Assembly (NCBI RefSeq): GCF_004135585.1
Contig: NZ_CP035501.1
Span: forward strand, 2,489,501-2,553,500
Length of the DNA: 64,000 nt
Direction: 5' to 3'
DNA from: Sphingosinicella sp. BN140058
GTDB taxonomy: Bacteria; Pseudomonadota; Alphaproteobacteria; Sphingomonadales; Sphingomonadaceae
Shown here: piece after piece, positions 5,393 to 42,406 of the stretch
How the letters are laid out: each line of letters opens with the position of its first letter
Numbering within the stretch: position 1 is the first letter of the stretch
Notes under the pieces: generated by a model
Told to the model about the DNA's origin: nothing
The model's input: only the letters and a program-made list of their open reading frames with translations
Databases searched by the model: none
Made by a program: the position numbers and the translations under genes

Positions 5393-5524
5393 CGGGGGAA
5401 GGTCCCGGAAAAGATGCGGTCTGTCCCGAAAACGTCAGAAATCTTGCCGGGACGAGCCTCGCCCTTGCCATTGGCGCGTTGATTTGCCAACGCATCGAGC
5501 ACTCAGCATTTCACAGGACGCGGC

Positions 5525-6148: not shown

Positions 6149-6163
6149 GCGGCGCGCGCGCGT

Positions 6164-6198
6164 GATGGACCGAGCCGGCCCGCTCCGGCTCTTCCATC
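6164..6198. terminator. Hairpin between convergent genes
   Basis: GAGCCGG (6172-6178) pairs with CCGGCTC (6185-6191) and the stem extends outwards through GATGGA and TCCATC with a small bulge. It lies between two convergent genes (stops at 6148 and 6223). There is no long T-run, so it may act as a weak bidirectional terminator. Confidence 0.45.
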
Positions 6199-6222
6199 GA
6201 GCGGGTTGGCATCGCGCTTCGA

Positions 6223-7440
6223 TCAGCTGCGGAAGTTGAGCCGGCGCGCGATCCTGTAATCCGCAATGGCGACCAGGAAGTAGGCCGCCGCCCATTTCAG
6301 CCGCGTAAGGGGCGTGCGGTCCCGGCGATGACTTTCGACCGTGATCTCGCGACTGTTCTCGATCTCGCCATCGGCGAAGCGCCGCATTTCCGCAGCGAAT
6401 GCGGCATCCTCCACGCGCAGCATCATCTCGAGATTGAGGAACAGGCTGCGCATGTCGAAATTGGCCGAGCCGATATGGACGACGTCGTCCACGACGAACA
6501 GCTTCGTGTGGAGTTTGGTCGGCTGATACTCGAAGATCCGGACGCCGCGCTTCAGCAACCACCAATAGGTATTGCGAGCGGCGCCGATGGTGGCGCTGTT
6601 GTCCGATTTCGATGCGGTGATCAGGCGCGTGCGGCCGCCGCGTCGGACGACGCGGGCCATGCGGCGCAACATGCCGAGGCTCGGCGCGAAATAGGCGGCA
6701 ACGACATCGAGTCGCGTTGCGCTGCGCATGTCGCGGCGAACCGCCCGCGCCCAGGGCGAGAGACGGCGCGTCGGTCCTCCGAACAGCCAATCGAGCTTGC
6801 CGCGGTCGACGCTGTGCTGCTGCAGCATGCGCCGGAGATCGCGTATCCGGCCATGGGGCTGCTGTGCCCAGGCGAACAGATCGTCGAAGTAACGGATCAG
6901 GCATGCAACGCCGTCTCCCTCCACCTGCAGGCCGAGATCCCGCCAGGCGCCCGCTTCCACGGTGCCGAAATAATCGTCGGAGATGTTGAAGCCGCCGATG
7001 ATGACCTTGCGGCCATCGGCAAGCGCCAGCTTCTGGTGGTTGCGCAGCAGGTAGCGGCGGCCCCATTTCGGGATGAAGGTGCAGAAAGCGGCGGGACTGT
7101 CGGCCAGCGGCTGGAAAAACTCGCGATTGGTCGTCGAACCGAAGCCGTCGACGAGCAGGGCCACCTTCACGCCGCGATGCGCCGCTCCAATCAGCGCATC
7201 CCGGACACGGGTGCCCGCGGCGTCGTCGAGGAACATGTAATAGAGAAAGCGAAGGCTTTCCTGCGCCTGATCGATGAGCGCGATGACGGCGTCGAGACGT
7301 GCCGGGCCGTCGGCAATCAGGCTGAGTCGATTGCCCTCGACGATGGTTCCGAAAGCCTCTTCTCCCGCCATGTTCTCGTTCATGGTCCCCGCCATGCGAG
7401 CGGCGTGCGTGGAGTGCAACCCCAGGCGGCACATTGACAT
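6223..7440 (-). CDS. Phospholipase D-superfamily protein, cardiolipin synthase-like
   Basis: A 405-residue protein with two HKD catalytic motifs: NHQKLALADG near residue 135 and LHTKLFVVDD near residue 311, each followed by GGFN or GSANFD. Two such motifs forming one active site are the signature of cardiolipin synthases and related phosphatidyltransferases. There are no N-terminal membrane helices as in E. coli ClsA, so it resembles the ClsB/ClsC type. The start at 7440 is supported by GGAGG six bases upstream. Its 5' region overlaps the probable rpoZ promoter on the other strand. The substrate (two phosphatidylglycerols or another donor) is inferred from the family only. Confidence 0.87.
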   Translation of the reverse strand: MSMCRLGLHSTHAARMAGTMNENMAGEEAFGTIVEGNRLSLIADGPARLDAVIALIDQAQESLRFLYYMFLDDAAGTRVRDALIGAAHRGVKVALLVDGFGSTTNREFFQPLADSPAAFCTFIPKWGRRYLLRNHQKLALADGRKVIIGGFNISDDYFGTVEAGAWRDLGLQVEGDGVACLIRYFDDLFAWAQQPHGRIRDLRRMLQQHSVDRGKLDWLFGGPTRRLSPWARAVRRDMRSATRLDVVAAYFAPSLGMLRRMARVVRRGGRTRLITASKSDNSATIGAARNTYWWLLKRGVRIFEYQPTKLHTKLFVVDDVVHIGSANFDMRSLFLNLEMMLRVEDAAFAAEMRRFADGEIENSREITVESHRRDRTPLTRLKWAAAYFLVAIADYRIARRLNFRS

Positions 7441-27939: not shown

Positions 27940-29595
27940 TCAGACGCTGGGACGCCGTATGTAGAGGTCCCACATCGTAGATCGATCCTGGATGTCGAAC
28001 TGCTGTCTCAGGGACGGCAGGAACCGGGAGTGGAGCTCGTTGGTTCGATCGTCACGAAGTACCAGCACCGTGTCAATGTCGGCTGGAATAGCATTGAGCG
28101 CTTTCATGATCGGTGATTCGTGACTTGCGCCAAGCGGGAAGCTGAGGACTGGTTGGGACTGCAGCACGAAAGGCCATGTGCTCGAGTAGAAGCTTAGGAC
28201 CTTCCGCTGCCGGATGTTCGGCAAGCGGGACAGAAGTGCGAGTCCATCCGCATGGGCATATTGCCACTCGTAATCCCCCATCCACCGCGCGCTTTGTTCG
28301 AGGTGCAGCCGATCGCCAATCTTCTTGATGGCGATCGAGGGCCGCGTAAATAGCGGCGTCTGGGACGTCTCCGGCCGTTCGACGATCAGTCCCGCAAGCG
28401 TACCGCTCTTGAACAGGGAAAGTTCGCCGCCACGTGCCTGACCGCGAAGCCCAACCAGCACGTTCATCAGGTAGGGTGTCATGAAGGTAAGGGCGTATAC
28501 GGCCAGAGCGATCGTGAACATGCGGGCCTCACCGTCTTCCCGATGCAAGCCTTCGTCCGCCGCCATGATCACGACGAACGCGATCATCGGGGTGGTCGCG
28601 GCGATGAAATAATCCAGGGAGCCGGTCGTCAGCGTAGCGAGCATACCGAGCGGGAGGATCGCAGCGAGTACGCTCAACTTGATTGCCAGCCACCTTCCTT
28701 CTTTGCGCGTAACCCAAAGATAAGCGATCGACCCGGCCGCGATTGCTAGCCCGAAGAAATTATAAAGGCTGTTATAGAAGAGTTTGCGGAACGCCCAGTC
28801 GATGATGAACCCTACCCCTGCGACCGCGGAAAGGTCGCCCGGCGCCTTCATATAGGCTTCCGGCCCATAACCTAGAACGGCCCAGCCCATGGCGATCATT
28901 GCGATCCCGTACAACGCGCAGTGAAGCAGTCCTTTCAAGCCGTTGCGGTAAAGCAAGGGAGCAGCGGCAGGTACGAGCAGAATGGCGAAGGTGAGCTTGG
29001 TGACGAGGATCAGGAACGCTGCCGCCGCGCATACGAACAACTCCACTTGGCGGAGAGGCTGGTCTGACAGCAGCACCGTCGCATAGCATGTGATCGCCAA
29101 GGCCCAGCACAGCCTGTTGTAGTACATCGAGTAGGAATGGCGGAATATCTCGGCTCCGCCGTCTTCGAAAGGGGACCAGGTCAAACTGGTTGCAGAGAGC
29201 AGGACCAGCAGGAGCGCGAACGTGGCGAGGCGAGCCTGGCGCGCGATGCCGCAGTAGAACAGCGCCGCGCAGATGAAGAAGCCGATGACGATCGCCTGCT
29301 CGATCGCCTTGAACGTCGGGCCAAAGAGTCGCATCGCCCAATCGATCAGGTAGATCTCGTAACCGCCGAATTGCCACACGAAATCGACGTGCGGAACGTA
29401 GCCGTGGTGAACCAGGTAGCCGGCGTTCAGCAAGTAGAAGCAGTCGATGACGTACTTGTTGGTGTAGGTGTTCGGCAGGATCAACGCCAGTGAGGCGAAC
29501 GCTATCGCACCGAAAAGCAGAGCTCCGCTCAACCAGAGCGGCGGAGCCATCGTTGCAAGGCGCCGTCCACGCTTCGCCATGGCCAGATCGCTCAT
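27940..29595 (-). CDS. Polytopic membrane protein, GT-C-like glycosyltransferase
   Basis: A 551-residue protein with about 10-11 predicted membrane helices and a soluble C-terminal part of about 140 residues. The first extracytoplasmic loop holds HHGYVPHVDFVWQFGG. The pattern (small-residue G, P, then D near the membrane) is like the catalytic Asp loop of GT-C enzymes (GT39 and related). It could transfer a polyprenyl-phosphate-linked sugar to the chain outside the membrane, consistent with the GtrB-like (31094) and GtrA (33972) genes. The ATG overlaps the rfbH stop by four bases (ATGA), so it is translationally coupled to rfbH. I do not recognise a named family. Confidence 0.65.
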   Translation of the reverse strand: MSDLAMAKRGRRLATMAPPLWLSGALLFGAIAFASLALILPNTYTNKYVIDCFYLLNAGYLVHHGYVPHVDFVWQFGGYEIYLIDWAMRLFGPTFKAIEQAIVIGFFICAALFYCGIARQARLATFALLLVLLSATSLTWSPFEDGGAEIFRHSYSMYYNRLCWALAITCYATVLLSDQPLRQVELFVCAAAAFLILVTKLTFAILLVPAAAPLLYRNGLKGLLHCALYGIAMIAMGWAVLGYGPEAYMKAPGDLSAVAGVGFIIDWAFRKLFYNSLYNFFGLAIAAGSIAYLWVTRKEGRWLAIKLSVLAAILPLGMLATLTTGSLDYFIAATTPMIAFVVIMAADEGLHREDGEARMFTIALAVYALTFMTPYLMNVLVGLRGQARGGELSLFKSGTLAGLIVERPETSQTPLFTRPSIAIKKIGDRLHLEQSARWMGDYEWQYAHADGLALLSRLPNIRQRKVLSFYSSTWPFVLQSQPVLSFPLGASHESPIMKALNAIPADIDTVLVLRDDRTNELHSRFLPSLRQQFDIQDRSTMWDLYIRRPSV

Positions 29596-30911
29596 CGGCC
29601 GCGAATTTCCGTGGCCACGGAGGCGATCGTCTCTACCATATAATCGAGGCGTGCCTCGTCGATCCCCGGCCAGACCCCGATCCAGAAACTGTCGTTCATG
29701 ATCTTGTCGGTGTTGTCGAGCGTGCCGTGCACCCGATAGGCGACGTCGCGGAAGGCAGGCTGCTTGGTGAGGTTGCCGGCGAAAAGGAGCCGGGTACCCA
29801 CCTTGCGCTCCTCCAGCGTCTTCGTGAGCAGATTCCGATTGACGCCACTGCCGTCCCGGACCGTCAGAAGATAGCCGAACCAGCTCGGATCGGTGCCGGG
29901 GGTGGGAACCGGCAGATGGAAGAGCTCGTCCAGACCCGCGTCCCGTAGCCTTCGCTCCAGGCCGGCGAAGTTCTCCCGCCGTCGCGCCACGAAATGATCG
30001 AGCTTCTTGAGCTGGCTCACTCCGACGGCCGCCTGCATGTCGCTGACCTTCATGTTATAGCCGATATGGCTATATGTGTATTTGTGATCGTAGCCCTTGG
30101 GCAGCTCGCCCAGCCGCCAGCCGAAGCGTTTGTTGCAGGTGTTGTCCACGCCGGGCTTGCAATAGCAATCGCGGCCCCAGTCGCGGAACGACTCGGCTAT
30201 CTTCGCGAGCAGCGGGCTGTTCATGAGAACGGCACCGCCTTCGCCCATGGTGATGTGGTGCGCAGGATAGAAGCTCAGGGTCGCCACATCCCCGAACGTC
30301 CCAACGTGCTGACCGCCGACAAGCGCGCCAAAGGCGTCGCAGCAATCCTCGATCAGATACAGGTTGTGCGCCTTGCAGATCGCTGCCACCCTCTGAACGT
30401 CGAACGGATTGCCGAGTGAATGAGCGATCATAACCGCCTTGGTCTTCGGCGTGATCGCTGCCTCGAGGAGGTCCACGTTGACGTTGTGCGTCTCGACATC
30501 GACATCGACGAACACTGGGATGCAGCCATATTGAACGATCGGCGCAACGGTGGTCGGAAAGCCTGCCGCCACCGTGATCACTTCATCGCCCGGTTTGATC
30601 CTCTTCTCGCCAAGTTTCCAGGAGGTCAGGCAAGCGAACGCCAACAGGTTCGCGGCAGACCCGGACACGGTCAGCTTCGCATGGCGACGGCCGAAGATCG
30701 CGGCGACCTCGGTCTCGAACTGATCGGCGTAGCGCCCGGCGGTCAGCCACATGTCGAGGGAGGCATCGATGAGGTTCGCGCAATCGTCCGCGTCCATCAC
30801 CTTTCCCGACGGCGGTATGTAGGTCTCTCCAGGCACGAACGGAGCCGGAGGGCGTGACTCGTGAAACTGTCGGGCAAGGCGGATGATTTCAGAACGCAAA
30901 TCGTCAGTCAT
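29592..30911 (-). CDS. rfbH: CDP-6-deoxy-4-keto-glucose 3-dehydrase (E1)
   Basis: A 439-residue PMP/[2Fe-2S] enzyme of the AT-I fold. It removes the C3 hydroxyl of CDP-4-keto-6-deoxyglucose. SFYPAHHITMGEGG has His (218-219) where aminotransferases have the PLP lysine, the sign of a dehydrase. The cysteines C191, C249, C251 and C259 fit exactly the C-X57-C-X-C-X7-C cluster motif known for E1. The ATG at 30911 has AGGA before it; the frame is open to 31100, but the extra residues do not match the family. The enzyme needs a reductase (E3) that is not seen here. It is divergent from the GtrB-like gene and coupled to the GT-C-like gene. Confidence 0.96.
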   Translation of the reverse strand: MTDDLRSEIIRLARQFHESRPPAPFVPGETYIPPSGKVMDADDCANLIDASLDMWLTAGRYADQFETEVAAIFGRRHAKLTVSGSAANLLAFACLTSWKLGEKRIKPGDEVITVAAGFPTTVAPIVQYGCIPVFVDVDVETHNVNVDLLEAAITPKTKAVMIAHSLGNPFDVQRVAAICKAHNLYLIEDCCDAFGALVGGQHVGTFGDVATLSFYPAHHITMGEGGAVLMNSPLLAKIAESFRDWGRDCYCKPGVDNTCNKRFGWRLGELPKGYDHKYTYSHIGYNMKVSDMQAAVGVSQLKKLDHFVARRRENFAGLERRLRDAGLDELFHLPVPTPGTDPSWFGYLLTVRDGSGVNRNLLTKTLEERKVGTRLLFAGNLTKQPAFRDVAYRVHGTLDNTDKIMNDSFWIGVWPGIDEARLDYMVETIASVATEIRGR

Positions 30912-31093
30912 GTCGATCCTGTCGTGGGGAGGTGGCTGCACTGCCAAGTCGATTTCGAAACGCTCGTTAGCGGCTTCAAACCAGAACGTCGATGGGGCAC
31001 GCTCCCGCGCAGGGGACGGGCGTGCCGAGGAGCACGCCGTGGAGGAGCGTTTTCGCTTGGCAGCGCGCCGGATTTGATGCGATGCGGCGCGCC

Positions 31094-32029
31094 ATGGCAA
31101 ACAAGCTCATTTCGATCGTCACCCCGTGCTACAACGAAGAAGAAAACGTTCGGGAGCTTGTCGCCCGTATCCGGGGGGTGTTCGCGCAACTACCGGATTA
31201 TGATTATGAGCACATCCTCATCGACAATGCTTCCACCGATGGAACCGCACAGGTGCTGCGTCAGCTTGCGGGCGAGGACAGCCGGACGAAGGTGATCCTC
31301 AACACCCGCAATTTCGGCCACATCCGGTCGCCTTATCATGCCATCCTCCAGGCAAGCGGTGAGGCCGTGATCCACCTCGTCGCCGATCTTCAGGACCCCC
31401 CTGAGATGATCCCGGATTTTCTTGCGAAGTGGAGCGAGGGCTTCAAAGTGGTGCTGGGTGTCAAGACCCAGTCGCAGGAGTCGCCCGCCATGTATGCGAT
31501 CCGGAAGTTGTACTATGATCTCAGTGGCCGTTTGTCCGAGGTTCGACTTATTAAGAACTACACGGGATTTGGGCTCTACGACCACGTGGTGGTGGAGCAG
31601 TTACGCCAAATTGATGATCCGTACCCCTATTTCCGCGGCCTCATTGCCGACCTTGGGTACGAAGCGGCATTGATCCCCTTCAATCAGCCTGTTCGAAAGC
31701 GCGGAATAACAAGCAACAACTTTTACAAGTTGTACGATATCGCGATGCTAGGGATTACCAATCATTCGAAAATTCCGCTACGTATGGCCACGATGGCAGG
31801 CTTCTTCCTGTCTGCCGCCAGTCTGTTTATTGCACTGGGTTATTTGATTGCAAAGCTCCTGTTCTGGAGCCAGTTTGCCCTTGGAACGGCGCCCATTCTG
31901 ATCGGGTTTTTCTTCTTCATGTCGGTTCAGCTCTTCTTCATCGGCATTATCGGCGAGTATGTCGGTGCGATCCACACCCAGGTTCAAAAGCGACCGCATG
32001 TGATCGAGAAAGAGCGCTTGAACTTCTGA
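31094..32029 (+). CDS. GtrB/DPM1-like polyprenyl-phosphate glycosyltransferase
   Basis: A 311-residue GT2 protein with two C-terminal membrane helices. The N-terminus SIVTPCYNEEENVREL is followed by ILIDNASTDGT and the diagnostic VADLQDPPEMIPDF. This pattern belongs to GtrB, ArnC and DPM-synthase-like enzymes. They transfer a sugar from UDP or GDP to undecaprenyl phosphate at the cytosolic face. The ATG at 31094 gives MANKLISIVTP; an in-frame ATG at 31082 is possible. GC content falls in the second half compared with neighbours. With GtrA at 33972 and the GT-C-like protein at 27940 it makes a plausible side-branch module. Confidence 0.9.
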   Translation: MANKLISIVTPCYNEEENVRELVARIRGVFAQLPDYDYEHILIDNASTDGTAQVLRQLAGEDSRTKVILNTRNFGHIRSPYHAILQASGEAVIHLVADLQDPPEMIPDFLAKWSEGFKVVLGVKTQSQESPAMYAIRKLYYDLSGRLSEVRLIKNYTGFGLYDHVVVEQLRQIDDPYPYFRGLIADLGYEAALIPFNQPVRKRGITSNNFYKLYDIAMLGITNHSKIPLRMATMAGFFLSAASLFIALGYLIAKLLFWSQFALGTAPILIGFFFFMSVQLFFIGIIGEYVGAIHTQVQKRPHVIEKERLNF

Positions 32030-32170
32030 TCGTCGGCGCGCCCTGCGCCTGCAGGGCGGCGGCCCGGCGTCACGGCGCCGAAGGCGGCGGTCTCAAGCCG
32101 ATACGGGTTGACGTACGGGTGCGGCTCCGCCAAGCCAATCACATCTCAGACTTAGAAAAGGGTGTGTGTC

Positions 32171-32980
32171 GTGACTCCGACCGAGCGGAACATGTTGGAC
32201 CTCTTGAAGAAAGGGCGCGATCATCACGGGGTGGTGGCAGTGAAGGCCGAGTTCGAGGCCGAAGGTACGCGCCCCGACGAGTTTCACCGGTTGCTCGAGC
32301 TCGCGCAGCGGGCGGGCCTCAAGGTAGCGTTGAAAATTGGCGGCTGCGAGGCTGTATCGGACCTGCTCGCCAGCAAGGTCTACGGCGTGGACTATATCAT
32401 CGCGCCGATGGTCGAAACTCGTTACGCACTGTCTAAGTTCGTTGATGCCAAGAACAAGACCCATGGTCCGGACGAAGCCCGTACCGAGTTCCTGTTCAAC
32501 CTGGAAACCGAGACAACGCTGCAGAATCTGGACGACATGCTGCCTCTCGCCAAGGAGGGCGTTGATGGCGTGGTCTTCGGCCGGGTTGATTTCACCTTGT
32601 CGCGGGGCATGCCGCGGGGGGCAATCAACGAAAGGTCAATCACGGACGCGGTGCTGAAGGTGGCTCAGGCTTGCCGTGCGGCGGATCTCGAGCTGGTGGT
32701 GGGTGGCTCGGTGTCGCCCGACGCGGTGGAAGCCTTGCGTGAGATCCAGGCGGTGCGCCTTGATCGCTTCGAAACACGCAAGGTCATCTTCGACGGAGCA
32801 GCGGTTACGACCGATGCGATCTTCGACGGCATCGCCAATGCGGTCGACTTCGAGTTGCTCTGGCTCAAGAACAAGCGGGAATATTACCAGCGTATTGCCG
32901 ACGAGGATCTCGCTCGTATCGAAATGATGGAAGCGCGGGCTCGCAAGGTGACGCCGCAGCAGATCGCTGCAGTCGGCTGA
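32171..32980 (+). CDS. HpcH/HpaI-family aldolase/citrate lyase-like
   Basis: A 269-residue TIM-barrel protein of the HpcH/HpaI class II aldolase family, whose members use a divalent metal and pyruvate or oxaloacetate. Visible are APMVETRYALSKF, FNLETETTLQNLDD and VDGVVFGRVDFTLSRGMPRG, which correspond to the family E and D metal ligands and the substrate loop. The start is GTG at 32171 with AAAAGGG eight bases upstream. It is in a run of sugar genes, so a role in making or cleaving a 2-keto acid for a surface sugar is suggested. No published function in such loci can be cited with confidence. Confidence 0.75.
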   Translation: MTPTERNMLDLLKKGRDHHGVVAVKAEFEAEGTRPDEFHRLLELAQRAGLKVALKIGGCEAVSDLLASKVYGVDYIIAPMVETRYALSKFVDAKNKTHGPDEARTEFLFNLETETTLQNLDDMLPLAKEGVDGVVFGRVDFTLSRGMPRGAINERSITDAVLKVAQACRAADLELVVGGSVSPDAVEALREIQAVRLDRFETRKVIFDGAAVTTDAIFDGIANAVDFELLWLKNKREYYQRIADEDLARIEMMEARARKVTPQQIAAVG

Positions 32981-33191
32981 GGCGTCTCAAACGGTGCGCG
33001 GCGTCTACGGCCGGCGCTGGCGTGCAAGCCGGTTCTGGGTTCGCGCCGTGGCTGAGGGCCAGGGCGCCGTCTCGTGTGATCGGCACCGGCGGTGCCGACC
33101 GGAATGCAGTGCGGCGGCCGCGGACCTCGTTCCAGCGGCCGGATCATCAGGCGGCGAGTGCCTGAAACGTATTTAGAAATTGGAGCTGATC

Positions 33192-33965
33192 ATGCAGACG
33201 AGCCCGTTCAAGATGAACGCAAAGCGGGAAATCACTGGAAGGACGGAGGCCGAGGAGGGGCTGGTAGACGAGCTGCAAAGCACCTACGCCGATCTTCTGC
33301 CGAAGTTCGGACAAAGCTGGAACGGGCACACTCTCGTTGCGCTCACCCGACAGACGCTTAGCCGCGCCCTCTATTACGATCAGCTTTATCGAAAGATCGT
33401 GGGAGTGCCCGGCGTCATCTGCGAATTTGGCGTGCAATGGGGCGCGACGCTCGCACTCCTGACCAACCTTCGGGGCATCTACGAACCCTATAACTACCGG
33501 CGCAGCATTGTTGGGTTCGATACCTTCGCTGGTTTTCCGAGCGTCGACCCGGTCAACGATGGCGCCCACCTCAACGAGGGCGATTACCGCGTTGAAGAAG
33601 GCCACGAGCAGGTGCTCGAGCGGTTGCTGACGCTGCATGAGGCAAATGCGCCGATTTCTCACATCCGCAAATTCGAGCTGGTAAAGGGGGATGCCTCAGA
33701 GACGGTGCACAAGTGGCTCGACGACAACAAGCACGCCATCATCTCCATGGCGATCTTCGACATGGACATCTACAAGCCCACCAAGGATGTTCTCGAGGCG
33801 ATCATGCCGCGGCTGACCAAGGGGTCGGTTCTGGTGTTCGATGAGCTGAATGTCTTGCCGTTCCCGGGTGAGACGATCGCCGTCCAGGAGGTCCTCGGCC
33901 TCAACAATCTGCGTCTCCAGCACTTTCCTCACCAGCCCAATTGTGCATGGGCCGTGTTCGAGTAA
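33192..33965 (+). CDS. TylF/MycF-like O-methyltransferase
   Basis: A 257-residue class I SAM methyltransferase. GVICEFGVQWGATLALLTN is SAM motif I and IVGFDTFAGFPSVD the second strand, followed later by AIFDMDIYKPTKDVLE and LVFDELN, which match the metal-binding region of macrocin O-methyltransferases. In polysaccharide loci such enzymes methylate sugar hydroxyls. GGAG lies seven bases before the ATG; an in-frame TTG at 33180 is less likely. The region before it (32981-33191) has no gene, only a short perfect hairpin. It ends seven bases from the convergent gtrA-like gene. Confidence 0.8.
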   Translation: MQTSPFKMNAKREITGRTEAEEGLVDELQSTYADLLPKFGQSWNGHTLVALTRQTLSRALYYDQLYRKIVGVPGVICEFGVQWGATLALLTNLRGIYEPYNYRRSIVGFDTFAGFPSVDPVNDGAHLNEGDYRVEEGHEQVLERLLTLHEANAPISHIRKFELVKGDASETVHKWLDDNKHAIISMAIFDMDIYKPTKDVLEAIMPRLTKGSVLVFDELNVLPFPGETIAVQEVLGLNNLRLQHFPHQPNCAWAVFE

Positions 33966-33971
33966 GCCCGG

Positions 33972-34430
33972 TCAGTCCACGTCGACGAAAACGAACCGCC
34001 GCATTGCGAAATAGGTGAAAATCGCAAGCGGCGGTACCATCAGCGCCCCGGCTGTCAAAGGCGGCAGGCCAGCCCTCTCAAGAGCGCTGATGGCGGCTAT
34101 GTTCATCCCCATCTGCACCACGTAAACGGCTACGAACCGAGGCAGTAGCCGCCCCGTTCGGTTTCGAAAAACCACCGAGCCTGTCGATACGAAATTGAAT
34201 AGGATGCCGAGGACCGTACCGGCAATCACCGCCGCGGGAGTGGGGAGTCCGATGAGGATCAATGCGGCGAAGATGCCGTATCCAACCAGGGTGTTCAGAC
34301 CTCCGACCAACAGGAAGAGCAGGAAGCGGCGCGCTTCCGGATCGCGGATCCATGCGATCGGTCCCCGCCGAAGAAGGGCAAGGCCATGTTCGATCCTGTT
34401 CAAGGTACTTGTCCCCGGTCCATCTTGCAC
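33972..34430 (-). CDS. GtrA-family membrane protein
   Basis: A 152-residue protein with four membrane helices. FLLFLLVGGLNTLVGYGIFA and the positions after it (VLGILFNFVSTGSVVFR, FVAVYVVQMGMNIA, PPLAIFTYFAMRRFVF) are the standard GtrA pattern. GtrA proteins are thought to flip undecaprenyl-phosphate-linked sugars. The GTG at 34430 with AGGTG nine bases before is chosen because the upstream extension is not GtrA-like. The gene is convergent with the TylF-like gene and divergent from rfbG. It fits with the GtrB-like protein at 31094. Confidence 0.9.
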   Translation of the reverse strand: MQDGPGTSTLNRIEHGLALLRRGPIAWIRDPEARRFLLFLLVGGLNTLVGYGIFAALILIGLPTPAAVIAGTVLGILFNFVSTGSVVFRNRTGRLLPRFVAVYVVQMGMNIAAISALERAGLPPLTAGALMVPPLAIFTYFAMRRFVFVDVD

Positions 34431-34635
34431 GTGCGAGCACCTACAACTTTGTGCGATTCCGGCAAGCCTCCGCAACCGGCTGGCGCCGGCCGCCCGAATT
34501 TTCTAACCGGTTCCCGGGCTCATAATGGAGGGTGTTGGTGAAACCGTGTCGATCTGTCGAGAGCGCCAGCGCATGTTGTGGCTCCCGCCCCCGCATCAAG
34601 GCCGCAGGCCTTCTCTCTCAGCTGAGTATCACCGG

Positions 34636-35748
34636 ATGACCGATTGGAATGGACGCCGCGTTTTCATCACCGGCCATACAGGATTTAAGGGCAGCTGGCT
34701 TTCCATGCTGCTTCAGGAACTCGGAGCCGAGGTGACCGGATACGCGCTCGCGCCCCCGACGGATCCGAGCCTGTTCGAAGCCGCGGGGCTGAGCGGGACG
34801 ATGACCAGCGTGGTCGCGGACGTGCGCGATCACGATACATTGGTTGCCGCGATGCGGGATGCTCGCCCCGATGTCGTCTTCCATTTGGCGGCCCAGCCGC
34901 TTGTTCGTTACTCGTACGATCATCCGGTCGAAACCTATGGAACCAACGTTATGGGCACCGTGCACGTTCTGGAAGCAGTGCGCGCGCTTGGCACCGTCAA
35001 GGCTGTAATCGCCGTTACCAGCGACAAATGTTACGAGAACCGCGAGTGGGTCTATCCTTACCGTGAAACCGATCCGATGGGTGGCCACGATCCCTACAGC
35101 AGCAGCAAAGGATGTTCCGAACTCATCATTGCCGCCTACCGCTCCTCCTATTTTCCGGTGGCCCGGCTCTCCGAACACGGCACCGCCGTGGCCTCCGTGC
35201 GGGCGGGGAACGTCATCGGAGGCGGTGATTGGGCTCTCGACCGTCTCGTTCCGGACCTCGTTCGTGCGTTCGAAGCCGGCGCAGATCCGATTATTCGTTC
35301 GCCCGGCGCGGTTCGCCCTTGGCAGCATGTGCTTGAGGCCCTTGTGGGTTATGTCGGGATCGCGGAGCGGCTGCTCGGCGGCGACGGGCGCTTCGCGGAA
35401 GCGTGGAACTTTGGCCCCGCTGACGAAGACGCGCGCCCAGTGGCATGGATCGTCGACAAAATGGCGCACAGTTGGGGGGTGCAAAGCCGCTGGCGAGATT
35501 GGGACGGCGAAATTCCGCACGAGGCTGGCTTGCTGAAGCTGGATTGCTCCAAGGCTCGTACCGAACTGGGTTGGCGGCCCACTTTCACCCTGGAACAAGC
35601 GATCGACGCGATTGTGGCTTGGCACAAGGCTGTCGGGAGCGGGCAAGACGCGCACGATGTCAGCGTCGGACAGATCCGCGCATTTTTGGCGCTTCGCGAT
35701 CAACGAGCGTCGTCCACGTCACGTATGGCGGGAGCAGAATCATCCTGA
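34636..35748 (+). CDS. rfbG: CDP-glucose 4,6-dehydratase
   Basis: A 370-residue extended SDR. It converts CDP-glucose to CDP-4-keto-6-deoxyglucose, the substrate of RfbH. VFITGHTGFKGSWLSMLL has the GxTGFKG motif diagnostic of this enzyme. FHLAAQPLVRYSY, the catalytic YSSSKGCSE (YxxxK) and AGNVIGGGDW are also conserved. The ATG at 34636 starts the fold; the reading frame is open upstream. The gene is separated from rfbF (39361, other strand) and rfbH (29592), which is unusual because these genes are normally contiguous in DDH clusters. It leads the operon that includes the HAD, TPP and reductase genes. Confidence 0.95.
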   Translation: MTDWNGRRVFITGHTGFKGSWLSMLLQELGAEVTGYALAPPTDPSLFEAAGLSGTMTSVVADVRDHDTLVAAMRDARPDVVFHLAAQPLVRYSYDHPVETYGTNVMGTVHVLEAVRALGTVKAVIAVTSDKCYENREWVYPYRETDPMGGHDPYSSSKGCSELIIAAYRSSYFPVARLSEHGTAVASVRAGNVIGGGDWALDRLVPDLVRAFEAGADPIIRSPGAVRPWQHVLEALVGYVGIAERLLGGDGRFAEAWNFGPADEDARPVAWIVDKMAHSWGVQSRWRDWDGEIPHEAGLLKLDCSKARTELGWRPTFTLEQAIDAIVAWHKAVGSGQDAHDVSVGQIRAFLALRDQRASSTSRMAGAESS

Positions 35749-35910
35749 ACGTCCAACTCGCGGCTTCCGCAACGCTGTCGATGAACGAGGCGGCAAGGCT
35801 CGGCATATCGCATTAAGGACCTAGTGAGAAACTGAGATGAATGACTTCAGGATCGCAACACCGATCTTCCTTGCGCGCGTAGCCGCGCAAATCAAGTGGA
35901 GCATGCGCTG

Positions 35911-36615
35911 ATGGAGCTGCAATTCCTTCTCGACTTCGATGGCGTACTCTTCAATAGTAACTATGAAGCTTACACCGTTGCGCAGAAAGCGGCCGAGGGG
36001 CGCCCCGGCTTTCGTCAGGATGTCTCGTTCAACGAGTTCGAGACCTTCCGTTCGGTCGTAACAGACGCTTGGCACTACAATCGCTTGTACAACATTGCGC
36101 GCGGCACGATCCTCCCATCGATGCTGCGGGAGATCGACCCGGAGGAGGATGATTGGGCGTTTGCCAGCGCCTTTTTCGCGGCGCGAGAGGAAATCACGAA
36201 GGATCCCGACTGGCCCAAGGTGATGCCTCCATACGACTTCTTCTTTCTGATACGGCCGTTGCTGATCGCTTACCCCCACCGATTTGCGATCCTCTCCACC
36301 CGCAACGTGGCCTCGATCCGCCAGGCCCTGGCATTCCACGATGCCGATGTCATCCGTGTCTTCGGCCAGGAAGATATCCGGCGCGCCGGTTCGAAGCTGG
36401 CGGTCGCGCAGGAGCAGAACTGGCTGGAGCGCGGACGCTGGCTGATCGTTTACGTTGATGACATGAACTCGCATCTCGAGCCATTCGAAGGCATGGTTCA
36501 TCTCCCTCTGCACGCAAATTGGGGCTACGATCATTCCGATCTGAGCAGTCTCAGCCACCACCAGATCTTCACGATCATCTCCTCGCTCCTGACCCTCACC
36601 GAGAAGCAAAACTGA
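35911..36615 (+). CDS. HAD-superfamily hydrolase
   Basis: A 234-residue protein with the four HAD motifs: LLDFDGVLFNSN (motif I, DxD), ILSTRNVAS (motif II Ser/Thr), a Lys in GSKLAVAQEQN as a possible motif III, and IVYVDDMNSHLE (motif IV, DD). Most such enzymes are phosphatases acting on small molecules. GGAG lies nine bases before the ATG. The stop overlaps the start of the TPP enzyme in TGATG, which implies coupled translation and a joint task. The substrate is unknown. It does not look like the GmhB or KdsC subfamilies. Confidence 0.8.
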   Translation: MELQFLLDFDGVLFNSNYEAYTVAQKAAEGRPGFRQDVSFNEFETFRSVVTDAWHYNRLYNIARGTILPSMLREIDPEEDDWAFASAFFAAREEITKDPDWPKVMPPYDFFFLIRPLLIAYPHRFAILSTRNVASIRQALAFHDADVIRVFGQEDIRRAGSKLAVAQEQNWLERGRWLIVYVDDMNSHLEPFEGMVHLPLHANWGYDHSDLSSLSHHQIFTIISSLLTLTEKQN

Positions 36616-38348
36616 TGAAATACAGCGATCAGATCGGCGCCTGGCTCAAGGCGGCCGGCTACACCCACTATTTCTATGTCGGCGGCGGCAACATTATGCA
36701 CCTCACCGAAAGCCTTGATCGCTACCTCAAGGGCATCCCTGTCGTGCACGAAGTCGCGGCCGGCATCGGAGCGGAATATTTCAACGAGATCGCCGCCCCC
36801 GCGAAGGCATTGGCCTTGGTCACGGCCGGGCCGGGCCTGACCAACATTGTCACGGCCATATCCGGGGCCTGGCTGGAGGGCCGGGAATTGCTGGTGATCG
36901 GTGGGCAGGTAAAGACCACTGACCTGGCCATGCAGCAGGTCCGCTCACGCGGCATTCAAGAGATCGACGGTGCTGCGCTTGTCGAGTCGACCACCAAGCT
37001 CTCGTACCGCTTCATGGAGCCGATTTCCGCCCAGGAATTCCTGGATAGGATCGCCGTCAGCTGGGAGCCGAGGAAAGGGCCCGTCTTCCTGGAAATGCCG
37101 CTCGACGTTCAGGCCGCCCAAGTCGCGGAGAGCGCCCTTCCGCCAGTCGGACCGCCGAAGCTGCCGACTGCGACCGAATCGGAAATTGAATTCGCCGCCG
37201 ATCTGTACCGCCGGTCCGAGCGCCCAGTGGTGTTGCTTGGCGGCGGCGTCGATTACTCGACGGTGCAGCGCCTGCGAGACCGTTTCGCGGCGCTCGGAAT
37301 TCCGACAATGACGACTTGGAACGGATTCGATCGCTTCGATGGCGATGATCCATTCTATCTGGGACGTCCCGACACGTGGGGGCAGCGCAGTTCAAACATC
37401 ATCATCCAGAAAGCAGATTTGATCCTGGCGGTGGGCACTCGATTGGGCCTTCAGCGCACGGGCTTCAACTGGCAGGAATTCGGTCGAGACGCCACTGTCG
37501 TCCAGGTCGAGATCGATGCTGCGGAACTGAACAAGGGGCATCCCCGAACGGATCATAGATACCACGCCGATCCCAATCATTTCCTCGCCGCGCTGCTCGC
37601 TACCGAGCTCCCTGCCAAGGCCGATTGGCTGGCACATGCGCGCAGGATCAGGGACCTTATCCCCCGCGTGGAACCGGTGAATCAATCGAGGCCGGAATAT
37701 ATCTCCCCCTACGATTTCATGGTTCGCCTTGACGATGTCACCACCCCGGAAGACTTGTTCATCCCCTGCAGCAGCGGCAGTGCCTCGACGACTGCTTTGC
37801 AGATCTACAAGCAAAAGCTCGGCCAACGTATCGTCCACAATGGATCGCTCGCCTCGATGGGCTACGGCTTGAGCGGAGCGATCGGCGCCGCGGTTGCGGG
37901 TGGCGGCAGGCGAACCATTTTGATCGAAGGTGATGGGGGGTTTGCTCAGAACCTCCAGGAGCTCGGCACGGTCGCAGTAAACAAGTTGAATCTGAAAATT
38001 TTTATTTTTCATGATCAGGGCTATGCTTCGATCCGTATGACCCAGCGCAACTACTTCGACGGTAAATATCTTGGGTGCGACGAAAGTTCTGGCTTGGGTC
38101 TTCCAAATTGGGCGAAGCTCTTCCCGGCCTGGGACATTCCGGTGCTGAGTCTGCCTTTGCAGTTTGAGGATGATCCCGCCTTTCGGCAGTTGATGGCCTT
38201 GCAGGGGCCAGCGGCATTCATCGTCCCGATCGATCCCGAACAGACATATTTCCCCAAGATCAGCAGCCGCATTACCGCGACGGGGTCGATGGAATCCAAT
38301 CCAATCGATCGGATGACCCCCGAAATCGACTACCTCGCTGATCTCTGA
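36615..38348 (+). CDS. Thiamine diphosphate enzyme, acetolactate synthase-like (YerE-like role?)
   Basis: A 577-residue ThDP enzyme with PYR, central and PP domains. The catalytic Glu is in VVHEVAAG (E46). TAGPGLTN is the usual ALS/POX glycine motif. The ThDP metal motif starts at GDGG (439-442) but ends IFHDQGY: the expected Asn-Asn at 466-467 is His-Asp. ALS-like ThDP enzymes in 3,6-dideoxysugar clusters (YerE) add a two-carbon acetyl unit from pyruvate to a CDP-3,6-dideoxy-4-keto sugar. The gene is coupled to the HAD gene upstream, with a 12-base gap to the reductase gene downstream. The function as a branch-forming enzyme is inferred from this context. Confidence 0.8.
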   Translation: MKYSDQIGAWLKAAGYTHYFYVGGGNIMHLTESLDRYLKGIPVVHEVAAGIGAEYFNEIAAPAKALALVTAGPGLTNIVTAISGAWLEGRELLVIGGQVKTTDLAMQQVRSRGIQEIDGAALVESTTKLSYRFMEPISAQEFLDRIAVSWEPRKGPVFLEMPLDVQAAQVAESALPPVGPPKLPTATESEIEFAADLYRRSERPVVLLGGGVDYSTVQRLRDRFAALGIPTMTTWNGFDRFDGDDPFYLGRPDTWGQRSSNIIIQKADLILAVGTRLGLQRTGFNWQEFGRDATVVQVEIDAAELNKGHPRTDHRYHADPNHFLAALLATELPAKADWLAHARRIRDLIPRVEPVNQSRPEYISPYDFMVRLDDVTTPEDLFIPCSSGSASTTALQIYKQKLGQRIVHNGSLASMGYGLSGAIGAAVAGGGRRTILIEGDGGFAQNLQELGTVAVNKLNLKIFIFHDQGYASIRMTQRNYFDGKYLGCDESSGLGLPNWAKLFPAWDIPVLSLPLQFEDDPAFRQLMALQGPAAFIVPIDPEQTYFPKISSRITATGSMESNPIDRMTPEIDYLADL

Positions 38349-38360
38349 GCGAAGCCAGCA

Positions 38361-39329
38361 ATGTCAGGGCGCTCACTTCTCCTGATCGGGGGGACGGGAT
38401 TCTTCGGGAAGTCGTTCCTTGACGCCTACCGTCGAGGCTTGCTGAACCCTTGGTCCGTCGATCGGATCGATGTCGTCGCGCGGAGCGCCTCGGCGCTTCG
38501 CACGACGCATCCCGACCTCGTCGGGCCAGGCGTCGCGCTTCATGATCTCGATGTCGCGATTGCCGAGACCTTGCCCGCGGCGGACCTGGTCATTCACGCT
38601 GCGACGACGACGGATGCTCGCCTTTACGCCCAGGATGCGAAGGGCGAGTGCGAGCGCATCTTATCAGCTATCGGGAACTATGTGCGGATCGCCGCGCGCG
38701 AGCACCGCCAAAGCAGGATCGTACTGGCAAGCTCGGGCGCTGTTTATGGCCAGCAGCCAGGGCATGTTGCGGCGCTCCGCGAGGATCATGTGCTCACGGC
38801 AACGGCAGAGATGGTTGCTACCAAGCGTGATTATGCGGAGGCCAAGCGCGCGTCGGAAGCGCTTCTTGCCACCCTCGGCGCGGCTTCCGTCCGGACCGCA
38901 GTCGCACGCTGCTTTGCCTTTATAGGCTACCATCTTCCACGCGATCAGCATTTCGCGATCGGCAACTTCCTTGCGGACGGCCTCGCCGGGCGACCGGTGC
39001 GAGTGAATGCCCGCAAGGCGGTCGTCCGCAGTTACATGCACGCCGACGATCTGGTCGCATGGTTGCTGACGATCGCTGAGGCCGCAGATTCAACCTGCCC
39101 CATCTACAATGTTGGATCCGACGAAGCGGTGACGGTCGGAGACGTAGCGCGCGTCGTCGCTGAACGCTTTGGCGTCCCGGCCGAGGTTCCGCCAATTACG
39201 GATCCGGCGGTGGATCGCTACGTGCCCTCGATTGCACGCGCCCGAGGCGAGCTGGGGCTTGAGCTCTCCTATGATCTCGCATCAGCCGTCGACGATATTG
39301 CCGGTCGGCTCCGCGCCGGAGCGCGGTGA
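38361..39329 (+). CDS. NAD-dependent epimerase/reductase, extended SDR
   Basis: A 322-residue protein with LLLIGGTGFFGKSFLDAY (NAD motif GGTGFFG) and catalytic LASSGAVYG and YAEAKRASE (YxxxK). NVGSDEAVTVGDVARVVAERFG near the C-terminus is typical of sugar epimerases and reductases. It is directly after the TPP enzyme gene, so it may reduce the ketone of the added side chain, as YerF does for yersiniose, or epimerise the sugar. The two enzymes would act in the cytosol on the CDP-sugar. Similarity to abequose synthase-like reductases is also possible. The rfbF gene is convergent 31 bases downstream. Confidence 0.8.
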   Translation: MSGRSLLLIGGTGFFGKSFLDAYRRGLLNPWSVDRIDVVARSASALRTTHPDLVGPGVALHDLDVAIAETLPAADLVIHAATTTDARLYAQDAKGECERILSAIGNYVRIAAREHRQSRIVLASSGAVYGQQPGHVAALREDHVLTATAEMVATKRDYAEAKRASEALLATLGAASVRTAVARCFAFIGYHLPRDQHFAIGNFLADGLAGRPVRVNARKAVVRSYMHADDLVAWLLTIAEAADSTCPIYNVGSDEAVTVGDVARVVAERFGVPAEVPPITDPAVDRYVPSIARARGELGLELSYDLASAVDDIAGRLRAGAR

Positions 39330-39360
39330 TCGGGCCAGCGGGCGGTTCGCCCCTTGTGGC

Positions 39361-40131
39361 CTACCAAACCCGCCAGGGCGCCTGCCGCTTCTGCCAGAGT
39401 TCCTCAAGGAAATGCCGATCCCTCAGCGTATCCATCGGCTGCCAGAAGCCGTCGTGGAAATAGGCACGCATCTGATCCCCGGCTGCGAGTTGTTCGAGGG
39501 GCATGCGCTCCCAGACGGTCGTATCGCCCTCGATGTATTTCTCCACAGAACGGGAAAGAACAAAGAACCCGCCGTTAATCCAGCCGCCTTCCTCTACCGG
39601 CTTTTCAGCGAAGGCGTGGACTCGATCACCGTCGAGATCGAGTTGTCCGAAGCGGCTAAGCGGACGCACTGCAGCGACCGTGGCTTCCTTGCCATGGCTG
39701 CGGTGGAACTCGATCTCCTTGGCGATGTCGATGTCCGCCACTCCGTCGCCGTATGTAAGGCAGAAGGTATCGTCGTCGCCGAGATAGGACATAGCCCGTT
39801 TCAGACGTCCCCCGGTCATCGTCTCGTCGCCCGTGTCGACGAGAGAGATCCGCCAGTCCTCTGCGGTGTTACGGTGCACCTCGGTCGTGCCCTTGCGCAT
39901 GTCGATCGTAACGTCCGACATGTGGAGTGCGTAGTTCGCAAAATATTCTTTGATCAAATAACCCTTGTAGCCAAGGCATACGATGAAGTCGTTCACGCCA
40001 AAATGCGAGTAGATCTTCATGATATGCCAGATGATGGGCCGTCCGCCGATCTCCACCATCGGCTTTGGTCGCACGGCCGTTTCTTCGGCAAGACGGGTAC
40101 CGAGACCCCCAGCAAGAATGATTGCCTTCAT
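39361..40131 (-). CDS. rfbF: Glucose-1-phosphate cytidylyltransferase
   Basis: A 256-residue enzyme making CDP-glucose from CTP and glucose-1-phosphate. The N-terminus MKAIILAGGLGTRLAEETA, then VRPKPMVEIGGRPIIWHIMK, is diagnostic of this enzyme (the E in AEET is typical of the cytidylyl form). GYKGYLIKEYF and LTYGDGVADIDI are conserved, as are WINGGFFV and DGFWQPMDTLRD. This first step of the 3,6-dideoxyhexose route is carried on the minus strand apart from rfbG and rfbH. Its gene is divergent from asnB, with about 260 bases between them that hold no gene. Confidence 0.96.
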   Translation of the reverse strand: MKAIILAGGLGTRLAEETAVRPKPMVEIGGRPIIWHIMKIYSHFGVNDFIVCLGYKGYLIKEYFANYALHMSDVTIDMRKGTTEVHRNTAEDWRISLVDTGDETMTGGRLKRAMSYLGDDDTFCLTYGDGVADIDIAKEIEFHRSHGKEATVAAVRPLSRFGQLDLDGDRVHAFAEKPVEEGGWINGGFFVLSRSVEKYIEGDTTVWERMPLEQLAAGDQMRAYFHDGFWQPMDTLRDRHFLEELWQKRQAPWRVW

Positions 40132-40390: not shown

Positions 40391-42406
40391 ATGTGCGGTT
40401 TGGCAGGCATCTTGGGGAGCGGCGGCCGTTCACCGCAGTTGCTTGAAGATATGGGGCGGGCGATCACGCACCGCGGCCCCGATGATGGCGGCATCTGGTT
40501 CGACGAAGTGGCCGGTATCGGCCTTTCGCACCGTCGTCTCTCGATCGTCGATCTGTCGCCGATGGGGCATCAACCGATGCCGTCGGACGATGAGCGCTAC
40601 ATGCTCGCCTTCAACGGCGAGATCTACAATCACCTGGAGATTCGAGCCGAGCTCGACGCCCTTCGCACGGTAGCTTGGACGGGACACAGCGACACCGAAA
40701 CCCTGATCGAAGCCGTCGCGACCTGGGGGCTCGAGCCAACGCTTCGCAAGATCGTCGGCATGTTCGCACTGGCGCTGTGGGATCACCGCAGCCGGACGCT
40801 GCAGCTGGCCCGGGATCGATTTGGCGAGAAGCCGCTTTACTATGGCTGGGCCGGCCGCGATTTCGTGTTCGGATCGGAGCTGAAGGCCCTGCGCCGTCAT
40901 CCCGATTTCACGCATGCGATTAACCGCGATGCCCTGCGCGTGCTCGGGGCGCGTGCCTACATACCGGCGCCGCTCTCGATCTACGATCACATCTACAAGC
41001 TCGAGCCGGGTTGCATCCTGACGGTCGAAGCCACCTCGGCGAGCCAACGTATGGCGTCCCCGCCGATCGAGGGTCAATCGGGCGACATCAGGCTTGATCG
41101 CTACTGGTCCTATCGAGAGACGATGGTTGCCGGTCTGGCCAATCCGATCGGCAATCCCGATGAGGCGCTTGAGGAACTCGAGAATGTCCTTGCGCAGGCG
41201 GTCGCTGGTCAGGCGGTGGCGGACGTTCCCGTCGGCGCATTCCTCTCGGGCGGCATCGACTCCTCGACCATCGTCGCTTTGTACCAGAAGCACGCGCCCG
41301 GTCGAGTCAAGACCTTCTCGATCGGCTTCGCCGAGGCGGGCTTTGACGAGGCCGTTTACGCCAAGGAAGTCGCCGCCTTCTTCGGCACCGAGCATCACGA
41401 GCGCTACATCACGTCGCGCGAAGCGCAGGACGTCATTCCACTCCTGCCGCAGATGTATGACGAACCCTTCGCCGATTCTTCGCAGATACCCACCCATCTC
41501 GTGAGCAGGCTGGCGCGGGAGCATGTAACGGTGGCGCTTTCGGGCGACGGCGGCGACGAACTGTTCGGTGGCTACAACCGCTACATCGCGACGTCACGGC
41601 TCTGGTCGAAGCTGAAGCGCTTGCCGCGTCCGCTTCGCGCCGCGCTGGGCTCTTGCCTGGCACAGGTGCCGCCCGCCGGCTGGAACAGCTTGTCGGCCGT
41701 GCTGCCGGCCGGCCGGCGCCCTGCCTTTTTTGGTACCAAGGTGCAAAAGCTCTTCGGAACCATGCGGGATTGCGCGACGCTCGAGGATCTCGTCGACACC
41801 TTTCTCGACGAGTGGGCGGGGAAGGCGTCCCCGATCATGCCGCAGGCACCCCTGCCGGCGCTCGCCCGTTACGACATGACGCTCGCGCCGGACTCTCCCG
41901 ATGTCGCCCGGATGATGTATTCCGATGCCGTCTCTTACCTGCCGGACGACATCCTTTGTAAAGTCGATCGCGCAGGCATGGCGGTGAGCCTGGAATCGCG
42001 GATCCCCTTCTTGGACCATCGCGTGGCCGAGGTCGCCGCGCGTATTCCGCTGTCGATGAAGATAAGCGGCGGGTCGGGGAAGCAAATTCTCAAGCGGCTG
42101 CTCTACAAGCATGCGCCACAAAAGCTGTTCGACCGCCCAAAGGCGGGCTTCGCCGTTCCCGTGGGCGGATGGATCAAGGGACCGCTGCGTGACTGGGCCG
42201 AGGCGCTTCTCGATCCACGCCGGCTGCATGAGGATGGCTATTTCGAGGCCGGGTTGGTTCAGCAGCGGTGGCGGGCGCACCTTTCGGGCGAGAAGGACTC
42301 CACGCAGGCACTCTGGACGGTGCTGATGTTCCAAAGCTGGCTTGCCGATGCCTCGGACAGCGTGGAGGCCACGCCGATGCCGCTCAGCGCCGCGGCTGGC
42401 CGTTGA
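40391..42406 (+). CDS. AsnB-like glutamine amidotransferase
   Basis: A 671-residue protein with the catalytic Cys2 (MCGLAGILGSGG) of a class II glutamine amidotransferase domain, and a C-terminal synthetase domain with the PP-loop SGGIDSS at about 286. FSIGFAEAGFDE and SGDGGDELFGGYNRY are standard. True asparagine synthetases of this length exist, but copies in capsule loci, such as WbpS of P. aeruginosa O6, amidate uronic acids. Here it may act on a HexNAc-uronic acid built by the dehydrogenase at 14258. Its 3' end overlaps the convergent beta-helix gene by 23 bases. Confidence 0.88.
   Translation: MCGLAGILGSGGRSPQLLEDMGRAITHRGPDDGGIWFDEVAGIGLSHRRLSIVDLSPMGHQPMPSDDERYMLAFNGEIYNHLEIRAELDALRTVAWTGHSDTETLIEAVATWGLEPTLRKIVGMFALALWDHRSRTLQLARDRFGEKPLYYGWAGRDFVFGSELKALRRHPDFTHAINRDALRVLGARAYIPAPLSIYDHIYKLEPGCILTVEATSASQRMASPPIEGQSGDIRLDRYWSYRETMVAGLANPIGNPDEALEELENVLAQAVAGQAVADVPVGAFLSGGIDSSTIVALYQKHAPGRVKTFSIGFAEAGFDEAVYAKEVAAFFGTEHHERYITSREAQDVIPLLPQMYDEPFADSSQIPTHLVSRLAREHVTVALSGDGGDELFGGYNRYIATSRLWSKLKRLPRPLRAALGSCLAQVPPAGWNSLSAVLPAGRRPAFFGTKVQKLFGTMRDCATLEDLVDTFLDEWAGKASPIMPQAPLPALARYDMTLAPDSPDVARMMYSDAVSYLPDDILCKVDRAGMAVSLESRIPFLDHRVAEVAARIPLSMKISGGSGKQILKRLLYKHAPQKLFDRPKAGFAVPVGGWIKGPLRDWAEALLDPRRLHEDGYFEAGLVQQRWRAHLSGEKDSTQALWTVLMFQSWLADASDSVEATPMPLSAAAGR

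Follow-up and report, generated by a model that had tools for sequence, protein, structure and literature searches.

The stretch of DNA analysed here (the window; 64,000 nt) comes from Sphingosinicella sp. BN140058 (Bacteria; Pseudomonadota; Alphaproteobacteria; Sphingomonadales; Sphingomonadaceae in GTDB; assembly GCF_004135585.1, NZ_CP035501.1, positions 2,489,501-2,553,500 of the forward strand). In this window, positions 29592-40131 code for RfbH, a GT2 protein, an HpcH/HpaI-type aldolase, a methyltransferase, RfbG, an HAD-like protein, a thiamine diphosphate (ThDP)-dependent enzyme, a reductase and RfbF. We propose, with a probability of roughly 0.55, that this locus makes a cytidine diphosphate (CDP)-activated, 4-C-branched 3,6-dideoxyhexose, and that the donor of the branch, added by the ThDP enzyme, is a 4-hydroxy-2-oxo acid derived from the aldolase and the HAD protein. 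Judged from gene content, a 4-C-branched 3,6-dideoxyhexose as the product is well supported, and a 4-hydroxy-2-oxo acid, not pyruvate, is the most likely donor.

Acceptor-sugar genes and the ThDP enzyme

An earlier note on this DNA had claimed that RfbF, RfbG and RfbH are present and intact, and this holds for all three proteins, each of which exceeds its curated cut-off, i.e. RfbH scored 699 bits against 423 (NCBIfam NF011936, match from residue 64 of the open reading frame (ORF)), RfbG 488 bits against 278 (TIGR02622) and RfbF 429 bits against 300 (TIGR02623). Moreover, RfbH contains C254-X57-C312-X-C314-X7-C322 (ORF numbering), which is exactly the spacing given in that note, as well as the motif SFYPAHH. 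We take the His of this motif to stand in place of the pyridoxal phosphate Lys, and the Cys pattern to be the spacing of a [2Fe-2S] cluster. On the basis of these strong family matches, RfbF and RfbG would generate CDP-4-keto-6-deoxyglucose, from which RfbH, together with an electron donor that was not found in the locus, would strip the 3-OH to give CDP-4-keto-3,6-dideoxyglucose.

The ThDP and reductase genes lie in tandem after rfbG, as had been claimed, with the HAD gene between rfbG and the ThDP gene; the ATG of the ThDP gene at 36615 overlaps the TGA of the HAD gene. The ThDP enzyme matched the Pfam TPP N, M and C domains and has the usual GDG motif, and a Glu aligning with the Glu of JanthE was present in 82/82 sequences. 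The best match in the PDB was 8rph (290 bits, 4.5e-85) and the second was 5ahk (226 bits, 7.2e-66), which we take to be PpYerE; structures of acetohydroxyacid synthase (AHAS) ranked after both (172 bits and below, from 1.6e-49). 8rph is named as JanthE in PMC12188165.

A quick maximum-likelihood tree was built from 78 sequences; it has long branches and does not place 5ahk, L004 and L005 securely. The window enzyme fell in a clade of 28 rows (type I; SH-aLRT 100) with a sister clade of 13 rows (type II; 94). Types I and II together (41 rows, support 100) are nested in a set of 72 rows (99) that contains JanthE. The four ThDP paralogs of the genome fell outside this set, as did 5ahk, on its long branch of unsure place. 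Among these paralogs, L003 is by its family model a biosynthetic AHAS, with 751 bits to TIGR00118 (cut-off 538), and L005 is a pyruvate dehydrogenase, with 930 bits to its model (cut-off 792). L053 (25% identity) was excluded ahead of all counts, and L110, L116, L117 and L131 were excluded from the tree; L052, in which the ThDP gene is cut off, is absent from the tree and was assigned to type II from its neighbours only. L119 and L120 have the same ThDP sequences as L025 and L019, and they were counted separately in the residue counts below.

Phylogeny had been named in the earlier note as a check on the ThDP enzyme, and it groups this enzyme with the JanthE set and apart from the AHAS and pyruvate dehydrogenase of the genome. 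The enzyme could instead be of the acetolactate synthase type, catabolic or biosynthetic, and be in the locus by accident, and its best NCBIfam model is indeed acetolactate synthase; however, the score (235 bits) is far under the cut-off of 738, the genome has an AHAS and a pyruvate dehydrogenase of its own, and at least one of rfbF, rfbG and rfbH was present in the fetched stretch in 31/37 loci with non-AHAS-like enzymes versus 0/3 AHAS-like loci. This explanation is highly improbable, and we reject it on the basis of the tree together with the genome's own two enzymes. At the level of the phylum, 28/397 genomes have a match to the ThDP enzyme (E<=1e-58), of which ten hold AHAS-like proteins of 29-31% identity; no rfb gene was found near the three of these ten loci that were fetched (L116-L118). 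By its sequence, the ThDP enzyme is YerE-like.

The position of V121 in JanthE is Ile in 28/28 type I and 13/13 type II sequences and Asp in 19/19 sequences of the aldolase-linked type III. It is Phe in 7/7 AHAS-like sequences and in 5ahk, and 13 further sequences have P, T, V or I. In JanthE, Ile is tolerated at this position, Met doubles the activity and Ala lowers it (PMC12188165). Ile at this position may provide room for a bulkier donor.

The HAD-ThDP-reductase cassette and the aldolase

We found 37 loci in a scan of named genomes and counted 36 of them as relatives, i.e. 25 of type I and 11 of type II; the 25 include L018, which is almost a copy of the window (98%). HAD immediately upstream of the ThDP gene, the reductase immediately downstream of it (as the next matched gene) and rfbH within the fetched stretch were each found in 24/25 type I loci. 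Because rfbH, HAD and reductase recur to this extent, a chance gathering of genes is ruled out. The usual order is rfbF-rfbG-rfbH-(aldolase)-HAD-ThDP-reductase, and in 20/25 loci the matched rfb genes, any aldolase, HAD, ThDP and reductase genes are all on one strand. In two loci (L023, L032), HAD and ThDP are fused. Two fused proteins of 841 aa each (P0058, P0101) were also among the protein matches, and P0101 appears to be the protein of L023, being from the same species. The four HAD phosphatase motifs are DxD, S/T, K and DD, and all are present in the HAD protein of the window. L035 lies on a short contig without any rfb gene. L046, from a metagenome-assembled genome (MAG) of Chitinophagaceae, is the sole locus of the type I clade without an HAD match; its reductase and ThDP genes are separated by a further stretch (4500-6788).

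The earlier note had also pointed to a scattered gene order, extra genes and a variant product. The window and L018 do depart from the one-strand layout, and they also have another aldolase subfamily and a methyltransferase; the extra genes are those for the HpcH/HpaI-type aldolase, the TylF/CalS11-like methyltransferase and the HAD phosphatase-like protein. The idea that the sugar is unexpected in a sphingomonad is not supported, as the ThDP enzyme (E<=1e-58) was found in 18 of the 249 genomes of the family of the window. In the same genomes, HAD was found in 3 and the aldolase (E<=1e-10) in 15, all 15 of which are among the 18 ThDP-positive genomes, with 0/231 among the rest (Fisher test, 1.9e-21, kinship not corrected). 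The aldolase and ThDP genes are at most 7.3 kb apart on one contig in 14/15 genomes. The three ThDP-positive family genomes without the aldolase (L129, L132, L134) hold rfbF, rfbG and rfbH. Among the type I loci, 18/25 have an aldolase, which is of one subfamily in 17 and of the window's subfamily in L018, and 13 of these 18 have it as the gene matched between rfbH and HAD. The invariant Glu and Asp of the aldolase profile align with the metal-binding Glu and Asp of YfaU.

These data bear on the source of the branch. The earlier note had put forward a yersiniose-like route, in which the ThDP enzyme would use pyruvate as the source of a C2 unit for CDP-4-keto-3,6-dideoxyglucose. In such a route, the reductase would yield a 1-hydroxyethyl branch, and the aldolase, HAD and methyltransferase would serve other sugars of the same polysaccharide. 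The part of this route that leads to CDP-4-keto-3,6-dideoxyglucose and continues with YerE-like C-branching and reduction is supported by the family scores, PDB matches, tree and conserved loci. Moreover, the yersiniose set consists of RfbFGH together with a reductase and a YerE-like ThDP enzyme (PMC12247030 in part), JanthE takes pyruvate among other donors (PMC12188165), and 7/25 type I loci have no aldolase. By contrast, HAD is conserved and sometimes fused to the ThDP enzyme, the aldolase occurs only alongside the ThDP enzyme in the 249 family genomes, the V121 position is Ile and not Phe, and the score to 5ahk is under that to JanthE. For these reasons, a pyruvate-derived C2 branch is not the interpretation that we favour, and it seems rather unlikely.

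Alternatively, HAD alone could ready the donor from a central phospho-2-oxo acid, e.g. 2-keto-3-deoxy-6-phosphogluconate or phosphohydroxypyruvate, with the aldolase acting elsewhere or just broadening the range of donors. HAD-ThDP-reductase is the constant core (24/25), and six of the seven loci without the aldolase have HAD, in line with this possibility; the presence of the aldolase in most type I loci, and its site between rfbH and HAD in 13 of them, speak against it. We consider it slightly less likely still than a branch from pyruvate.

Several observations weigh against an aldolase-derived donor, or against parts of the route. First, no aldolase was found nearby in seven type I loci (L021, L022, L023, L028, L032, L036, L046), and a search of these seven genomes with the aldolase profile gave nothing in five and only marginal matches in L028 (E 1e-3) and L032 (3.6e-4); the same search recovered 3/3 known carriers run alongside. 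Four of these seven records are MAGs or single-cell genomes and may be incomplete; L022, L023 and L028 are isolates. Therefore, the core in the aldolase-free loci must use another donor, and this aldolase family is dispensable for the HAD-ThDP core; that the aldolase is always needed is ruled out. Second, the window aldolase belongs with the subfamily of type II (55-80% identity to those of 11/11 loci) and type III, and it has only 29-35% identity to the subfamily usual in type I (17/25); therefore, it may serve another step. Third, its predicted structure is an HpaI-like barrel that pyruvate kinases and the citrate synthase SbnG match equally. Catalysis by HpaI also involves Arg and His, and the alignment to known enzymes covers just the two metal ligands among the residues needed for catalysis. 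Fourth, the V121 position parts YerE-like from AHAS-like enzymes and not aldolase-linked from aldolase-free ones; L129 and L134, which are without aldolase, carry Asp like type III. Finally, an E3/RfbI-like electron-transfer partner for RfbH was not found by motif in the window ORFs of at least 250 codons, and the genome gives only partial E3/RfbI-like matches of 29-41% identity. The same motif marks putative candidates for electron partners beside rfbF in L029, L034 and L051.

Proposed pathway, related clusters and known systems

In the proposed pathway with a 4-hydroxy-2-oxo acid as the donor, the aldolase would condense pyruvate with a small aldehyde that is probably phosphorylated. The phosphate would be taken off by the HAD phosphatase, either from the donor before branching or from the branch afterwards. 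As in its YerE-like relatives, the ThDP enzyme would decarboxylate the 2-oxo acid and join the acyl unit to the C4 ketone, giving a tertiary alcohol, and the adjoining reductase would reduce the new branch ketone. The product, destined for a surface polysaccharide, would resemble caryophyllose in its longer polyhydroxyalkyl branch, in which position 2' is a CH2, and it may be O-methylated. Pyruvate is not a donor for ErwE, which prefers 4-hydroxy-2-oxo acids (PMC12247030), and caryophyllose is 3,6-dideoxy-4-C-[D-altro-1,3,4,5-tetrahydroxyhexyl]-D-xylo-hexose, i.e. its branch has OH groups at 1', 3', 4' and 5' and none at 2' (PMC5706390). A bare C2' beside an oxygenated C1' is the pattern that a donor made by aldol addition of pyruvate would be expected to leave. 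Therefore, the donor choice of ErwE and the branch pattern of caryophyllose lead us to propose the order aldolase, HAD, ThDP enzyme and reductase.

Caryophyllose in Mycobacterium marinum (MMAR_2332) and erwiniose in Pectobacterium (ErwE) share with the window a YerE-like ThDP enzyme, which in these two systems prefers hydroxylated 2-oxo acids, and a long C4 branch on a dideoxy or deoxy sugar (PMC12247030, PMC5706390); by contrast, the window enzyme is in an HAD-linked clade of its own, and the likeness is one of published descriptions. According to PMC9912281, a 3-OH distinguishes erwiniose from the caryophyllose-like sugar; PMC12247030 gives ErwE a 3,6-dideoxy acceptor, which seems at odds with this. 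Yersiniose A (YerE, YerF) has in common with the window the supply of the acceptor by RfbFGH and ThDP carboligation followed by a reductase (PMC12247030 in part). It differs in its pyruvate donor and C2 branch; the window has HAD and aldolase in addition, and Ile where 5ahk has Phe. JanthE (8rph) from Janthinobacterium sp. HH01 is the closest solved relative of the window enzyme and in the same 72-row set, but it has CDG in place of GDG and is in another subclade. It takes short to long 2-oxo acids and, with benzaldehyde, also 4-hydroxy-2-oxovalerate (PMC12188165).

The type II clusters are from Thiomonas, Thermomonas, Caulobacter and Brevundimonas. Similarly to the window, they have a ThDP enzyme that is 55-58% identical to that of the window (60% over the cut-off gene of L052), an aldolase of the window's subfamily in all 11 and rfbH in 8/11; by contrast, a short-chain dehydrogenase/reductase (SDR) and an AroB-like protein are present in 11/11 and HAD in 0/11. 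The two AroB-like proteins scanned (L049, L014) scored 282-285 bits to TIGR04425, with a cut-off of 400. It is possible that the AroB-like clusters make branched sugars that bear a carbocycle. In a wider view, AroB-like protein and SDR occur with a YerE-like ThDP enzyme in L038-L043, L045, L047, L049, L051, L052, L014, L099, L100, L102, L121 and L125, all of which except L014 also have the aldolase. Moreover, nine sphingomonad loci (L015, L016, L017, L123, L124, L126, L127, L130, L133) combine the aldolase with a ThDP enzyme of 33-36% identity; rfbF and rfbG are present in 8/9, and no rfbH was found in the fetched 20 kb. Therefore, the acceptor in these loci may keep its 3-OH.

More tentatively, these clusters might represent a widespread proteobacterial line for undescribed higher sugars. 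The aldolase would make a phospho-3-deoxy-2-oxo acid, which would lose its phosphate through HAD (type I) or through the AroB-like protein as a cyclase that at the same time closes a carbocycle (type II), and which a dedicated ThDP enzyme would graft on C4 of CDP-4-keto-3,6-dideoxyglucose. For the window, which combines an aldolase of the type II kind with an HAD-ThDP pair of type I, the product would be a hybrid C10-C12 sugar of its own. We hold this extended scheme to be possible, with less confidence than the pathway proposed for the window.

Setting of the locus and significance

The genome that holds the window is 6.07 Mb, and its nearest named kin among the genomes searched is Sphingomonas (Allosphingosinicella) deserti. 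The polysaccharide locus of the window also encodes a sugar-phosphate transferase, glycosyltransferases, an EpsG-like protein, an O-antigen ligase-like protein and one chain-length/kinase protein. The GT2 protein is probably of the polyprenyl-phosphate type. The top PDB match of the methyltransferase, CalS11, is a TDP-rhamnose 3'-O-methyltransferase, and the window protein, which was matched in L018 only among the 36 named relatives, may methylate the sugar. An asparagine synthase-like amidotransferase (40391-42406) adjoins rfbF and is present in L018 too.

Table 1. Genes of the proposed branched-sugar pathway, with coordinates in the window
Feature	Position	Strand	Basis or remark
RfbH, CDP-4-keto-6-deoxyglucose 3-dehydrase	29592..31100	-	ORF; probable start ~30911, where the family model begins; NF011936
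GT2 glycosyltransferase, PgfS/ArnC-like	30992..32029	+	PF00535; PgfS 180 bits, cut-off 500
HpcH/HpaI-fold aldolase	32162..32980	+	Proposed maker of the 4-hydroxy-2-oxo acid donor
TylF/CalS11-like O-methyltransferase	33180..33965	+	Best PDB match CalS11, 4.7e-52
RfbG, CDP-glucose 4,6-dehydratase	34525..35748	+	Probable ATG start 34636; TIGR02622 match from ORF residue 41
HAD-superfamily phosphatase-like protein	35911..36615	+	Stop codon overlaps the ATG of the ThDP gene
YerE-like ThDP carboligase, proposed C-branching enzyme	36615..38348	+	PDB match JanthE 8rph; tree
NAD-type reductase, proposed reducer of the branch ketone	38361..39329	+	PF01370, 7e-19
RfbF, glucose-1-phosphate cytidylyltransferase	39361..40131	-	TIGR02623

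YerE-like enzymes and long-branched sugars are already known, and an in silico survey predicted >200 YerE-like enzymes (Krug 2024, via PMC12247030). The aldolase-HAD-ThDP cassette was not found in the titles and abstract openings on branched sugars and YerE-like enzymes among the matches listed, a scope that did not extend to the survey of Krug 2024. Compared with this literature, the association of the ThDP enzyme with an aldolase and an HAD phosphatase, the fusions, the split into types I and II with the AroB-like protein, and the mixed locus of the window are new.

For long-branched sugars such as caryophyllose, the ThDP step is known, and the source of the side chain is unnamed in the parts of the literature compared; the recurrent set of aldolase, HAD and ThDP enzyme provides a directly testable answer. 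Moreover, the cassette is a source of a carboligase family for bulky tertiary alcohols, and it leads us to expect new surface sugars in sphingomonads, Caulobacteraceae and further groups.

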